Assembly: GCA_027604005.1 (NCBI GenBank)
Contig: JADGJT010000093.1
Span: forward strand, 1-64,000
Direction: 5' to 3'
Origin: Dinochytrium kinnereticum
Lineage: Eukaryota; Chytridiomycota; Chytridiomycetes; Chytridiales; Chytridiaceae
DNA: 64,000 nt
The notes under the pieces are model-generated. The model was not told the DNA's origin and did not search any database. It was given only the letters and a program-made list of their open reading frames with translations. Below are positions 49,045 to 56,798 of this stretch, in pieces. Position numbers and translations under genes: made by a program. The stretch's first letter is position 1. Each line of letters opens with the position of its first letter.

Positions 49045-51933
49045 ATGCACCTCGCCCTCGCCCTCACATTCATCTTGATCTCGCCATTAACCGCACAACG
49101 ATCCGGTGAATATCTTGTGGATTTGATGCCGAGAGATGCGTGGGACGATTCATTAACCTCTTTCTTTGGGGGTTGTGGTCTATCCAACCAGCTGACCCTT
49201 GCGCTGGTCTTGTGAGTGGGAGAGCTTACACGTTCGAGAGGGCCTACGCTTGCTATGCATCATTTTCTTTGAGTAGGGAGGAAAGACGCAGACACGTTGA
49301 CGAGCTTAAGAGAATTGTGGAAGTGTGGGTGCTTTTTGTTTTTTTTGTGATTGTTGTTGTTCTTCGTTCTTTTGTTTAGATGGGTGCAGGGTTGAGGAAT
49401 AACGTGGTGCGTAGAGGAGGAGCCTTTACAATTTATCCAGTTTTGAAAAGAAGGGGGGGGGTTGAGACTTTGGGACGCCCAAAGGTCGTTTTAGAAGGTC
49501 AAATTCTTTGATAACCACTCACTGGATCTAAAAGCGATGTTGAAACTTGATGAAGAATAGATTACGCACGATCGTGCATTTTCCAATAATGGAAAACTGA
49601 TTGTGCAGATTATTCGTCCGATACCCCATCAACATCTCCATGAACTCATCAATGCCTTACCTTATCCAAAAGAACTTCCAACTAACCCGAATCTTCTCCC
49701 TTCAGCTACCCTTTCACTGACTTAAACATCAACCCCCCCGCGCCACTCTTCCCCGCCTCCCTGAACCTAACCGCCTCGCTAGAGGCCCTGACAACGCCAG
49801 AAACAATGACCCATCTAGAATTCGACAGCCGGATCACCCTCTTGACAAAAGCCTTAAATGATGCTCATTTTTCCTATGCTCCTCAATGCACGCAAACTTT
49901 TACGTTTGTTCAGCCTTGGCATTTGAGGGTTGTTGATGGGGCTGTGAGGGTTGGGAAGAGTATCTTTCGGGCGGAGGGGATGCGATTTTGGAGGAAGGAG
50001 GTTGGAGAGGTTGAGGGGTTTCGGGTGAGGAGAGTAGATGGGGTTGATGCTTTGGTGAGTATAGATGGTTATATTATCCTTTTCTTGTAATCTGACAACA
50101 GCCCGCCTTTTGCTTCATAAAAGAAATCCATCCAAAACTTTGCAGATCGTTTGTCCGGGTTCGCTCGATCCCCGGAATCACGCTTCAACGCAGTCCTCCA
50201 AACTCTTCATCTCATTGACGGGTCCTTTCAAACCATTCCAGGAAAATACTACCAAACCTCTTTTCTTGGCCACGACGCTCTTCCTAACAGGACCTACGAA
50301 CTCGTTCCTCCCGAAGGTGGTCCGGACGTTAGGCTGGTTGTTCCTTGGGCTGCGTTATTCTTGGTCGGTGAGGAGAATGTTCGGGTTGAGAGTGGAGGAA
50401 TGTATGGGGAGATGTTCTGTGGGAGAGCTACGAATAGGTCTGCGTTGAGAAGGAGGGGGGAAGAGAGGAAGTTGAAACGACCCGCTTCTGAGTTCGCGGT
50501 GCCAAGCTACTACAAACCTCTCCCCGCGAATCTCACTGTCGCAATCACAATACCTGACATCTTTGCCTCTAAATCGATGATCACAAACACAACCATAACT
50601 AACACAACAATCCCACGACTGGATCTTGATGAACCCATTATTAAGGATAACGCCGGGTCAGCATTTTATGTGATGGATGATGGGGAGACGGGTGTTTGGG
50701 TGTTTGCGAGCGTTGTGCCAAGAGAGGAGAGTGATGAAGGGATTGCGGAGTGGGTTGGGGTTGTTACGGGTGGGTTGAGGGGGTTGGAGCGAAGAGGGGT
50801 TAAGAGGCTTTTAATTGATGTCTCGGGGAATGGCGGAGGTAACTTTTGTGCGGGGACGGCTTTTGCGGAGGTTAGTTATTTTATTTTTTTTTTCGTTGAT
50901 TCTCTCAGTGTTCTTAGTTTTTGTAGTTCTTGGTTACCTTTTTTTTCCACCATGCTCTCCTGTGGCCTTATAAAATCCTTATTGAACGTTTCTTCTCTCT
51001 TTACTATTTTTTTTTTGTTTTTTTCGGTTTTGTTCGATATAATCTGCTTTTCATCACTGATCAACCTTGTAACATTTCTTTTCCCCCTCTACCAAAAATG
51101 CACAGTACCTCATCTCAAATACCCCCATGATCATTGATCAAATTCGCCTAACCCCTACCGTCCGTGCCCTCCTCAAAATCGACTTCCTCTCCTTCAACAG
51201 CCCAGATCCCGACGTCAAACCCCTCAATACCTCCCAAACGACTTATACCCAGAACCGAGGAGGAGGTAACCAAACTCTCTCACCCTTTTTCACATTCTGC
51301 CACTCTACTGGGACTGAGAGAGGGCTGAAAGGTCCTGGTGTGCCGCAACTTCAAAAAGGATGGAGTCCGAATGACATTGCGGTTGTAAGCGACGGGGGGT
51401 GTGGAAGCGCTTGTGCTTGCTTTGTCAGGACTCTAAGGGACGCTCATGGGATCCGTGCGTTTGTTTATGGAGGTTCACAGACTGGAAAAAATTACACGCC
51501 CACGTCGTTTGAAGGTGGCATCGTGGTGCCCTTTTCACAGATTGCGACCTACAATGCCTCGGGGCTCTCTGAAAGGGAGACTTCGCTTCTTCCCGTCAAT
51601 TTCTCGATGCCCGTTTACGGAAACATTCCTGTCACTCAAGGGTACTCGAGGCTGGGACGATTGGGAACGACGTTTCCGGCTGAATGGGTGCCGCAACCTG
51701 CAGAGTTTTTGGAGATTTCGGATCCTTTTGATAAGATTGCGCTTTGGAGCGTTGTTGTGGAGAGGATGAAGGGGGTGGGGAATTCTTCTGGGATGGGGGG
51801 GGCTGGAGGTGAGAAGCAGGCGGTCCCATTGGACTTGCCTAAAAATGAGCGGAACGGAGGCTTGGAGTGGGGATGGAGGGGATGGGGTGGATTGATTGGA
51901 GTGCTGATGGCTGGGTTTAGTGTCGCATTATGA
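49045..51933 (+). CDS. secreted S41-like serine protease with GPI-type C-terminus
   Basis: Exons: 49045-49105, 49191 to about 49323, about 49706 to 50054, 50124 to about 50870, and 51105 to 51933. Signal peptide MHLALALTFILISPLTA. The mature start reads SADPCAGL, with paired cysteines as in fungal S41-family proteins. The tail-specific-protease core is recognisable: KRLLIDVSGNGGG (substrate-binding strand) and VVSDGGCGSACACFVRTL (nucleophile Ser in the GSxC context), followed by FVYGG. The C-terminus has a Gly/Trp-rich hydrophobic end (GLIGVLMAGFSVAL) fitting a GPI signal. The family is CPAF-like and occurs widely in saprotrophic and pathogenic fungi. Natural substrates are not known. First and second introns were placed by frame. 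Confidence 0.8.
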
Positions 51934-52771: not shown

Positions 52772-54957
52772 ATGCTCGTCCTCCCCTCCCTCATCGCCCT
52801 TGCTGCGGCTCAGACTGCCTTGGCTGCATGCATCAAGAAGTCGCCTTCGGCTACGGCCGTTGCCCTCCCCACCTACGCTGTCGATGCCCCTGCAGTGAAA
52901 TCGGCGAGCGCTGCCATCTCCCCAACGAGTTATGGAGTGTCAGCCCCCCCTGCTCCCACCACCACATCCGTCCCCAAGTCATCGTCCACAGCCGTCTACG
53001 GGGCTGGTGATGGTGAGTACGGCAAAACCACCACCACCACCACCACAGCAACGTCCTTTGCGCCTCCCGCTGCGACAAAGATTCCTGAGATCCCCAAGGG
53101 CCTCGGCTTTGTTGACTCTGCCCCGATCCAGGACCCAACCAAGATTCTACCATTTGTGGACTACATCTACACCAACCAACGCAACGACCCTTGCATGGTG
53201 ACAGCCGAGACCAACGCTGGTGCTCGTATCGGTCTCAAGATGTTGGACATTTGGAAGCCTACCTCCCTTATCGTGGATGCTGGAGTCACGCTCCCTGCTG
53301 CCAATGGGTGTTCTGCCGTCGTTGCCTCCACTTGGTCTGGAGTTCCTGGGGATGCGACGGACGGTACCATCCTAAACAAGGCCGCTCATGAGCACAACAT
53401 CATGTACTGCATTAATGTGACGAGCAAGCTCACCCCTGCGCAGGTGGAGTTGGCTTACTTTGAGGACCGCAGGAGCAAAGGGTACAACCTCGTTGATGGA
53501 ATGGGACCCCTTGCCGCTCCTTGGTACAAAATATCAAAGGTCTTCACCACTCTCACCACCGTCCCTGAGAACGCCTCCACGGTCTTTTACCCGGACACTG
53601 CAAATGGGTTTGGGGATGCCAGTGACCCCAACTTTGCAAAGATCATGAAGTTCCTTGACCTTCCTGGTCTGAACGCGTCTACCGAGCCTTCCAAGGTATG
53701 TTGAATGGCGGGTGCCTCAAGCACAGGCTTACACTCTTTCTTTAGCGTTTCTTCAAGTACGCCAGGCCTTACCGCTGGGACACCAGGGTGATTGTTCCCA
53801 GCGTTATTCGCCCTTCCCTCAGCAAAACCCCAAGCACTGATGGTGGTTACATCTCTGGCCACACCGCCGAGGCCTACCGAAAGGGCCTTGGATTCGCTTA
53901 TGTTGTCCCCGAGCGGTTCCAAGAGATGGTCGCCCGTGCATTTGAATCCGGTGAGCGACGAATTCTCGCTGGAGTGCATTCGCCGTTTGACGTCATGGGT
54001 GCTCGTAGCCACGCCACTGCTTCTGCCGCCGCCAACCTCTTAAACGTGGCCAAGGAGTATCGCAAGGAGATTCGCACGCTTGCAAGGGACATGCTTCTCA
54101 AAGCTTTGGACTTGAATGACACCACTGCTCTCAACGCTCTTGCTCGGAAGGGGGACGCCAGCAATGACCTGTTTGCTGATTACGAAAAGACCAAGGCAAA
54201 CATCATGTTTCGCTCCAACTATGGGTTCCCTATCATTGGCAGAACTGGCCTTCCTGCCAACGTTCCTAAAGGTGCTGAGGTCCTTCTAGAATCCAGGTTT
54301 CCTTATCTGTCGGCTGAGCAGATCCGTGTTATCCTCAAGACCACTGCCTTCCCGTCGGGACACCCGTTGAATGATGATGAGGAGGGCTGGGGCAGACTAA
54401 ACTACTTTGTTGCCGGGGCTGGATTCAATCGCTTGGATGGGGACGTTGATTTCACCATGGACGCTTCGCTTGGGGATTTCAACGCCGCGGATTCGTGGAG
54501 AAACGATATTTCTGGCGCTGGAAAGATCACCAAGAGGGGTTCTGGTGTTCTCACCCTTCGTGGGGCAAACTCCTTCACTGGCGGGTTGGTCATCCTTGGT
54601 GGAGCTGTTGAGGCAGGGTCCCGGTCTGCTCTTGGAAACGGTGACGTCTATGTTGGAGAGGGGGCCGCTCTTTTGGCCGATGATCCCGTTTCTGTAGGCG
54701 GGGCTTTCACCCAGCTTAAGGGATCAAAGCTCACTGTTTCGGTCGTTGGCTCTGGCGTTGCCTTCTCGGTGAAGGGACAGGCGGTGATTGCTGGTGGAGA
54801 GCTTGTTATCAAGGTGGCTGCTGGCCTTAAGGCTGGCGAGAAGGTCAAGGTGATTGAGGCTGAGTCCATTGTTGGTGCCTTTGCCAGTATTGTGGTTGAT
54901 GGGGCTAAGGCTTCCTACACCAAGACTGGCGTTGAGATTGAGGTTGCTGCTGATTAG
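52772..54957 (+). CDS. secreted PAP2 (class A-type acid phosphatase) fused to autotransporter-type beta-strand repeat
   Basis: Two exons, 52772-53695 and 53746-54957, give 711 residues. A signal peptide is followed by a Ser/Thr/Pro-rich lead to about residue 105. The phosphatase core has all three PAP2 signatures: K308-x6-R315-P316 (the Lys is the last codon of exon 1), SGH at 345-347, and R380-x5-H386-x3-D390 in RRILAGVHSPFD. Next comes an ISRASD-like helical part. From about residue 566 a beta-rich region reads GAGKITKRGSGVLTLRGANS, FTGGLVILGGAVEAGS and LGNGDVYVG, which matches the passenger repeat of bacterial autotransporters (PATR). No outer-membrane barrel follows. It would release phosphate from organic esters outside the cell. 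The architecture is bacterial; the intron and the Thr-rich lead are fungal. This suggests transfer followed by domestication. Confidence 0.88.
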
Positions 54958-55547: not shown

Positions 55548-56798
55548 ATGAGGTTCATTGCTGCCGTTGTTGCGCTTGCTGCTGCCGCCACTCAGGTCGT
55601 TGGCCAGACCATCGTCGAGGCCCTCGTTGCTGACCCCGAGGCCGCCACCCTTGTCAAGGTTGCCTCTGATATTGATGGTGTGGTTGACCTTCTCGCCGGC
55701 GTTGACGGCCCCGTCACCCTCTTTGCCCCCACCAACGCTGCGTGAGTGATATACATCATCCCATCCTGTCGCCTTTGTTTCTTTTCACTATCACCGCCTT
55801 ACTATCGCTGGTGATGCATTTCTTGACGTCTAACCGTTTCGTCTCATGCTTTCAATAGCTTTGACAAACTGATCGAGGCGAAGGCTGACCTTTCTGACAA
55901 GAAGGCTGTTGGCGACATCCTCTTCTACCACGTCGTTCCGGGCACTTCCTACAGCCCTACCGCTGGCAGCACCGTTCTCTCCACTCTCTTGAAGCCTGAG
56001 GGGCTTGACAACCAGCCTGTCGTCGCTGCCTTTGACGGCAAGACTGTCACCATCAAGTACCGTCTCTCTGGTGCGAAAGTCGTCAAGTCCACCCCCATTC
56101 TTAAAGGAAAGGGTGTTATTCACTTTATCGACACCGTTCTTCTCCCTCCCCAGGACATTGTCACTGTTGCCACTAATGGTGATCTCACTTCCCTTCTCTC
56201 AACCATCGAGTTCGCTGGCATCGGTGCTACTGTTGCTGGCCTCAAAGGCGTCACCATCTTTGCTCCCACCAACGCTGCCTTTGAGGCCATCGCTGAGGTT
56301 ACCAAGGACCTTAGCAAGGAGGTCATTACCGACGTTTTGACCCTTCACGTTGTCCCCACCGTCGTTTTCTCTCCCGCGATTATCAAGGCTGAGTCTATCC
56401 CCGCCGTCGAGACTCTTCTTAAGGATCAAACCCTGGCTGCGGCCTTTGACGGAAAGGCTGTCACTGTCGCTGGCCTTGGAAACAAGACCCCCGCCACTGT
56501 TGTTCTTGCTGACATTGTCTTTAACGGCGGTGTCGTCCACGTCATTGACACTGTACTCCTCCCTGGGGCCCCCGAACCCCCTACCACCGACGTTGAGACC
56601 AAGACGGAGACTTCGACTTCAACCAAGACTCTTGTCGAGTACTCTTCGGCTACCTCCACCGTCGCCACCCTGGCCGCTACCAAGACCACCTACGGTGTTG
56701 CCAAGCCCACCAACCTTTACGTGGAGAACAGTGGCTCTGCTTTGGTTCCTGTCGGTGCCGCCGCTGCCGCTGTTGCGGTCGCTGCCTTGATGGCTTAA
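55548..56798 (+). CDS. fasciclin (FAS1) two-domain cell-surface protein
   Basis: Two exons, 55548-55741 and 55859-56798, give 377 residues. The intron splits GC|C. Signal peptide MRFIAAVVALAAAATQVVGQ. Two FAS1 domains follow, each with VTLFAPTNAA or VTIFAPTNAAF (H1 motif), a YH or LHVVP strand, and a GVIHFIDTVLLP or GVVHVIDTVLLP end (H2). The C-terminus is Thr/Ser-rich, then hydrophobic (VGAAAAAVAVAALMA), a likely GPI signal. Such proteins act in adhesion and wall organisation. Codon use is C-ending and strongly biased compared with neighbours, as expected for a highly expressed gene. Confidence 0.92.

Follow-up and report, generated by a model that had tools for sequence, protein, structure and literature searches.

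A bacterial-type acid phosphatase with an autotransporter-type beta-helix in Dinochytrium kinnereticum, probably acquired by an ancestor of Chytridiales

How does a chytrid come to encode an acid phosphatase joined to a beta-helix of the bacterial autotransporter type, and what use would it have for such a protein? The question is raised by a gene on the forward strand of Dinochytrium kinnereticum contig JADGJT010000093.1 (assembly GCA_027604005.1), in a stretch of 64,000 nt called the window here; all coordinates are positions in this window. A reading made from the sequence alone (the sequence-only reading) had placed the gene at 52772-54957 and proposed that it was transferred from bacteria. 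The coordinates were right: the gene has two exons (52772-53695 and 53746-54957) and a 50-bp intron, and its product is 711 aa long. Taken together, our results make it probable that a bacterial gene for a surface phosphatase was acquired, probably once, by an ancestor of Chytridiales, and that its product would now serve as a secreted phosphate scavenger.

Origin of the gene

The D. kinnereticum protein is homologous to bacterial proteins from end to end (approximately 50% over 604 aa), and because the homology is continuous, the gene appears to be one inherited bacterial architecture rather than a fungal enzyme to which a domain was added. Relatives were taken from the best 120 of 1001 matches (7998 scored candidates), the best 120 of 955, and the best 120 of 2115. 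Among the matches listed, the closest were from Phlyctochytrium bullatum (56% and 55%), followed by metagenome protein P0003 (52%). Next came proteins with approximately 50% identity across all 604 residues; those with names were chiefly from Burkholderiales, with Chytriomyces hyalinus also present. A profile search with the fungal rows added Entophlyctis luteolus and Physocladia obscura among the matches listed, and a second fungal profile gave no further fungal name among the best 120 of 2115. Most listed matches are nameless, and more distant eukaryotic relatives may exist beyond the best 120. Occurrence in other chytrids, which the sequence-only reading had proposed as a check, was found: at least four other Chytridiales species have the gene, and the transfer thus appears to be older than D. 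kinnereticum.

The fungal clade has eight members, consisting of the D. kinnereticum protein, two proteins each from Phlyctochytrium and Chytriomyces, one each from Entophlyctis and Physocladia, and P0003. In a tree of 58 rows and 651 columns, these eight rows grouped together (99/98) inside a Pseudomonadota clade of 47 rows (100/99), apart from the rows of Bacillota, Deinococcota, and Actinomycetota. These 58 rows, eight of the fungal clade and 50 bacterial, remained of 198 after the bacterial ones had been filtered at 69% identity; locus L108 (one of the 17 matched in the genome sample described below) was left out of the trees because no open frame with the motifs was picked up there. A reduced tree omitted ten rows (Paracoccus, Niallia, Paenibacillus, five divergent nameless ones, L098, and P0003), and the seven remaining fungal rows again grouped together (100/97), in a 39-row Burkholderiales-type clade (95/95) and a 44-row clade (100/98). 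Fungal monophyly was present in 99% of 200 bootstrap trees for both the full and the reduced set, and FastTree on 183 and on 228 rows returned the same fungal clade (99), with long-branch warnings. Constraining all Pseudomonadota together without the fungi (here the 40 bacterial rows of the 47- and 48-row clades) was rejected, only modestly, in the approximately unbiased (AU) test (p-AU 0.031). The fork where the fungal rows attach is unresolved in the reduced tree. Metagenome protein P0044, considered as a sister of the fungi, sits in this fork, and no sister is claimed.

Horizontal transfer of the gene from bacteria into fungi is very likely, and this direction is well supported. That the transfer happened once is favoured, not proven. 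The donor was most probably a beta-proteobacterium-like lineage. Transfer from bacteria, as originally proposed, is the best-supported origin; the vertical topology set against it does not describe the tree, in which the nearest relatives are fungal, yet the fungal group lies inside Pseudomonadota.

Two other histories have to be weighed. An old fungal gene inherited vertically and lost in many lineages, or else a transfer in the opposite direction, from chytrids to bacteria, would fit the fungal identity of the nearest relatives of the D. kinnereticum protein. Either is very improbable, since the fungi are nested among bacteria whose diversity extends to Bacillota, Deinococcota, and Actinomycetota, and the AU test speaks against fungi outside Pseudomonadota. 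Fungal names among the matches listed belong to six proteins of four species, all Chytridiales, and P0003 is the only nameless protein to join the fungal clade in a tree of 195 listed proteins. Alternatively, there may have been at least two separate transfers, each from related bacteria, one into the Phlyctochytrium/D. kinnereticum group and one into the Chytriomycetaceae group. Several observations weigh against a firm single origin here: a constraint placing the Phlyctochytrium/D. kinnereticum/P0003 group outside the rest was not rejected (p-AU 0.177), identity to bacterial proteins reaches 61.7% for the Entophlyctis protein and only 51.2% for that of D. kinnereticum, and Cys213 varies among the fungal members. 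Separate transfers are nevertheless unlikely given fungal monophyly in both the full and the reduced tree and in nearly all bootstrap trees, and a single acquisition from bacteria is the reading we prefer.

The gene is integrated in the nuclear genome. Its intron (53696-53745, + strand; 50 bp) is spliceosomal and in phase 0; the donor reads GTATGT, the acceptor TTTAG, and a CTTAC word resembles a branch site. This intron unites the open frames 52772-53704 and 53788-54957, and it was the sole + strand match within the gene to the one splice pattern searched. Unspliced, the reading continues into the intron as V-C-stop and the frame ends after two extra codons. The splice point falls between Lys308 and Arg309, within the first phosphatase motif, and an intron between the Lys and the rest of this motif was correctly described in the sequence-only reading. 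The spliced junction, which joins STEPSK to RFFKYARP, has a continuous counterpart in seven other fungal-clade proteins and eight aligned bacterial proteins; the other fungal-clade members are known as proteins only, and this comparison shows residues, not intron positions. P0003 is a single uninterrupted protein of 593 aa with its N-terminus missing.

Ten other open frames of the window were compared with Pfam, and five matched (zinc-type alcohol dehydrogenase, IQ motif, myosin head, RNA polymerase I factor RRN3, and fasciclin domain). The myosin and RRN3 matches were partial, as expected because the genes are split by introns. The GC content at third codon positions (GC3) is 0.603 in the gene and 0.523-0.654 in seven other stretches of the window, compared to a mean of 0.859 (range 0.564-0.965) in 75 of 80 bacterial loci, the five with other start offsets being excluded. 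The 22.4-Mb assembly has one copy of the gene and PAP2 matches at three loci. It also has IFT57 and radial-spoke matches above cut-off, which point to a flagellated organism. Contamination of the assembly with bacterial DNA would account for a bacterial-type protein with approximately 50% identity to Burkholderiales; however, it can be discounted almost entirely because a spliceosomal intron interrupts a conserved motif, the neighbouring genes in the window are of fungal type, and GC3 is host-like. Homologues from four named chytrid species also group with the gene.

The fasciclin-domain gene (approximately 55548-56798, same strand) lies about 600 bases downstream and has its own Ser/Thr-rich stretch near the C-terminus. 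Upstream, the open-frame pair 50151-51933 looks by eye like one intron-split fungal S41-type peptidase gene, and Pfam gave no match to this pair frame by frame.

In Pseudomonadota the family is patchy: of 398 genomes sampled within the phylum to which G001 belongs, 17 matched at E up to 1e-60, including the centre genome G001 itself, a known carrier. This occurrence suggests transfer or loss among bacteria too. Forty-two plasmid records match the D. kinnereticum protein, each at <60% identity, and nine cover at least 80% of the query. Some bacteria thus carry the gene on plasmids or megaplasmids, by which a plasmid route into fungi is not shown. Among 50,697 phage records there was one weak match (27% cover), with Phlyctochytrium protein P0001 as the query.

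Phosphatase domain, linker, and beta-helix

Exon 1 (52772-53695, + strand) encodes a signal-peptide-like N-terminus (by eye), a Ser/Thr-rich leader, and the first half of the phosphatase domain, and its last residue is the motif-1 Lys308. Exon 2 (53746-54957, + strand) encodes the remaining phosphatase motifs, the linker, and the beta-helix. The class A non-specific acid phosphatase (PAP2) domain is at 53105-54111 (+ strand; approximately residues 112-430), split by the intron, with outer limits taken from the fold of the relative P0003. Pfam PAP2 matched residues 302-404 (29.4 bits compared to a cut-off of 27.2). The PAP2 signatures had been called intact, and K308, R315, S345-G346-H347, R380, H386, and D390 are all present in the D. 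kinnereticum protein, but the second motif had been miswritten and reads I-SGH, not P-SGH. They do not vary in any of the 228 aligned rows, 15 of which were preselected by a K-x6-RP plus SGH filter. We take this set (K, R, S/G/H, R, H, D) to be the site motif of class A acid phosphatases. The predicted fold is that of a class A soluble phosphatase, and a PDB sequence search with the protein matched class A phosphatases (PhoN and others).

Cys141 (53192-53194, + strand) and Cys180 (53309-53311, + strand) appear to form a pair. Both are present in all eight fungal rows and in 38 of the 220 bacterial ones, and neither ever occurs alone in the 228 rows, which suggests a disulfide inherited from the bacterial donor. 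In the first alignments, C141, C180, and C213 were found in fungi only, and a fungal adaptation was considered; this was dropped once the C141/C180 pair turned up in bacterial rows of a larger set. C213 alone stays fungus-biased (6/8 fungal compared to 1/220 bacterial rows).

The C-terminal part is predicted to fold as a right-handed beta-helix of the autotransporter passenger type (54295-54954, + strand; approximately residues 492-711). Within it lies a PATR unit (PF12951; 54526-54612, + strand), the only one in the 22.4-Mb assembly. The sequence-only reading had let its PATR claim depend on a profile search, and a match exists in both Pfam (residues 569-596, 31.6 bits compared to a cut-off of 27) and NCBIfam (TIGR02601, 34.4 bits compared to a cut-off of 19.85). 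The resemblance had been extended to 145 residues; the profile match stands, but it covers a single unit of 28 residues, and the beta-helix around it has roughly 220. The proposed link to bacterial autotransporters likewise holds for the PATR unit and the beta-helix but not for the nearest bacterial proteins, which are not autotransporters proper: the PF03797 barrel was found in none of the 62 members of alignment A3 (14 other families matched), and a lipobox-like motif is present in 145 of 188. In the D. kinnereticum protein, Pfam at E up to 1 found PAP2 and PATR only and no barrel. A relative on a Paracoccus marcusii plasmid (L085:1390-4518) has PAP2, PATR, and the autotransporter barrel. 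Barrel-bearing and barrel-less versions of the family therefore coexist in bacteria.

The linker (54232-54426, + strand; residues 471-535), which overlaps the beta-helix, shares homology with the autotransporter proteases Ssp and EprS, specifically with the C-terminal end of their S8 protease domain. In a PDB sequence search, residues 471-535 matched Ssp, and residues 415-520 of the Variovorax relative align to Ssp 306-411, including the segment FPYMSADQISAVIKTTA...FGWGRVNL. Among the 62 A3 members, the fusolisin model matched all 62, EprS 21, and mycosin two (E up to 0.01), with fusolisin and EprS scores far under the curated cut-offs of those models. The mycosin model presumably has no PATR helix. 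Peptidase_S8 had no match in the 62 members at E up to 1, and only the tail of that domain aligns. The simplest reading of these alignments is that the bacterial ancestor would have arisen, before the transfer to fungi, from an S8 autotransporter passenger whose front part gave way to a phosphatase.

Leader and proposed function

The Ser/Thr-rich lead described in the sequence-only reading is real. It spans 52826-53098 (+ strand; residues 19-109), contains 30.8% Ser/Thr over 91 aa, and is not found in eight aligned bacterial relatives. Ser/Thr-rich stalks occur in four named fungal proteins and that of D. kinnereticum (66-245 residues, 30-50% Ser/Thr). The two Chytriomyces proteins (P0007 and P0017) have no stalk and carry a hydrophobic C-terminal tail resembling a glycosylphosphatidylinositol (GPI) signal, which the other fungal-clade proteins lack; signal peptides and GPI-like tails were judged by eye, with no predictor. 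In bacterial database proteins, a lipobox-like motif is present within the first 60 residues in 145 of 188, compared to 3.9% of shuffled leaders (157 of 220 bacterial rows when stop-to-stop rows are counted). Most bacterial relatives resemble lipoproteins in this respect. A lipobox-like word, LAAC, is at 52820-52831 in the D. kinnereticum leader, and it may resemble the bacterial lipobox by chance: the word is absent from six of the seven other fungal-clade proteins, and the seventh, P0003, has no N-terminus. Sequons are not enriched in the D. kinnereticum protein (four observed compared to 3.3 expected); the eight fungal rows have 1-10 each, and the first 60 of the 220 bacterial rows have 5.0 compared to 4.0 expected.

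We propose that the source gene encoded a bacterial surface protein in which a class A acid phosphatase is borne by a beta-helix of the autotransporter type, and that an ancestor of the Chytridiales-type chytrids took up this gene, most probably once. In the fungus, a eukaryotic signal peptide and a Ser/Thr-rich stalk would have replaced the lipoprotein leader of the bacterial protein, an intron would have been gained, and codon usage would have shifted to that of the host. The protein would enter the endoplasmic reticulum, be secreted, and then stay in the wall or leave it. Its PAP2 active site would hydrolyse organic phosphate esters and free phosphate for uptake, and the beta-helix may act as a stable C-terminal scaffold or spacer. 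By analogy with PhoN, His386 is presumably the nucleophile and His347 the acid, while Lys308, Arg315, and Arg380 would hold the phosphate. An acid phosphatase role in freeing phosphate from organic esters is likely, judging from the active-site residues and the predicted fold; secretion, wall location, substrate, and helix role are inferred.

A gene of the same origin could serve other chemistry: its PAP2 domain could be a vanadium haloperoxidase or could have lipid or inositol phosphates as substrates. The product could also be mainly a wall or adhesion protein with a secondary enzyme. The PAP2 superfamily includes lipid and inositol phosphate phosphatase and vanadium haloperoxidase activities, and adhesins contain beta-helices of this type. 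Pho18, a bacterial PAP2 protein, is reported to be active on phytate (PMC6355987). These points favour another role, which we still consider improbable next to phosphate release from organic esters. A more specific proposal, which we offer tentatively as the less probable side of the matter, is that a chimera with the phosphatase in place of the S8 protease, and with the last protease segment and beta-helix kept, became a domesticated protein of Chytridiales, displayed on the wall to scavenge phosphate. A Ser/Thr stalk in some lineages, and a GPI-like tail in another, may have taken the place of its lipid anchor, making the autotransporter-type beta-helix a eukaryotic extracellular scaffold.

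Phosphorus is often limiting for freshwater life. Several Chytridiales genera have retained a bacterial surface phosphatase, which suggests that chytrids use a borrowed enzyme in competing for organic phosphate. Retention of an autotransporter-type beta-helix in a cell without an outer membrane is a natural test of the purpose of this tail.

Comparison with known systems

Transfer of enzymes from bacteria to fungi is well known and the general idea is not new; the present gene is a well-supported, somewhat unusual new case of bacterial gene transfer into chytrids. Transfers described in Batrachochytrium dendrobatidis (PMC5005798) likewise involve genes of bacterial origin in a chytrid. In the main text of that article the terms PAP2 and autotransporter are absent, and the single "phosphatase" is an arsenate reductase entry. 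A literature search of titles and abstract openings, covering few subscription papers, found no report of this gene family in chytrids.

The S8 autotransporter proteases Ssp (8e7f), fusolisin (8axg), and EprS match D. kinnereticum residues 469-598 with the end of the protease domain, the spacer, and PATR. Unlike these proteases, the 62 A3 members have no Peptidase_S8 match and the D. kinnereticum protein has no translocator barrel. The class A phosphatases PhoN, PhoC, and KpAP (7f17, 2a96, 1d2t, 9qcj, and 9jq0) have approximately 17-22% identity by structural alignment, and their chains are 211-274 aa long and are without the linker and beta-helix of the D. kinnereticum protein. There is also a close likeness to Burkholderiales PAP2/autotransporter-associated beta strand proteins (such as Variovorax ginsengisoli P0004 and Paraburkholderia tropica P0016), which have the same domain order over their full length at approximately 50% identity. 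As in D. kinnereticum, their active-site residues are identical, PATR is in the C-terminal helix, and there is no barrel match. The bacterial relatives differ in having a lipobox-like leader in most cases, compared to the signal peptide and Ser/Thr stalk of the fungal protein; they are also intronless, have the higher mean GC3 given above, and in 182 of 220 rows are without the Cys141/Cys180 pair.
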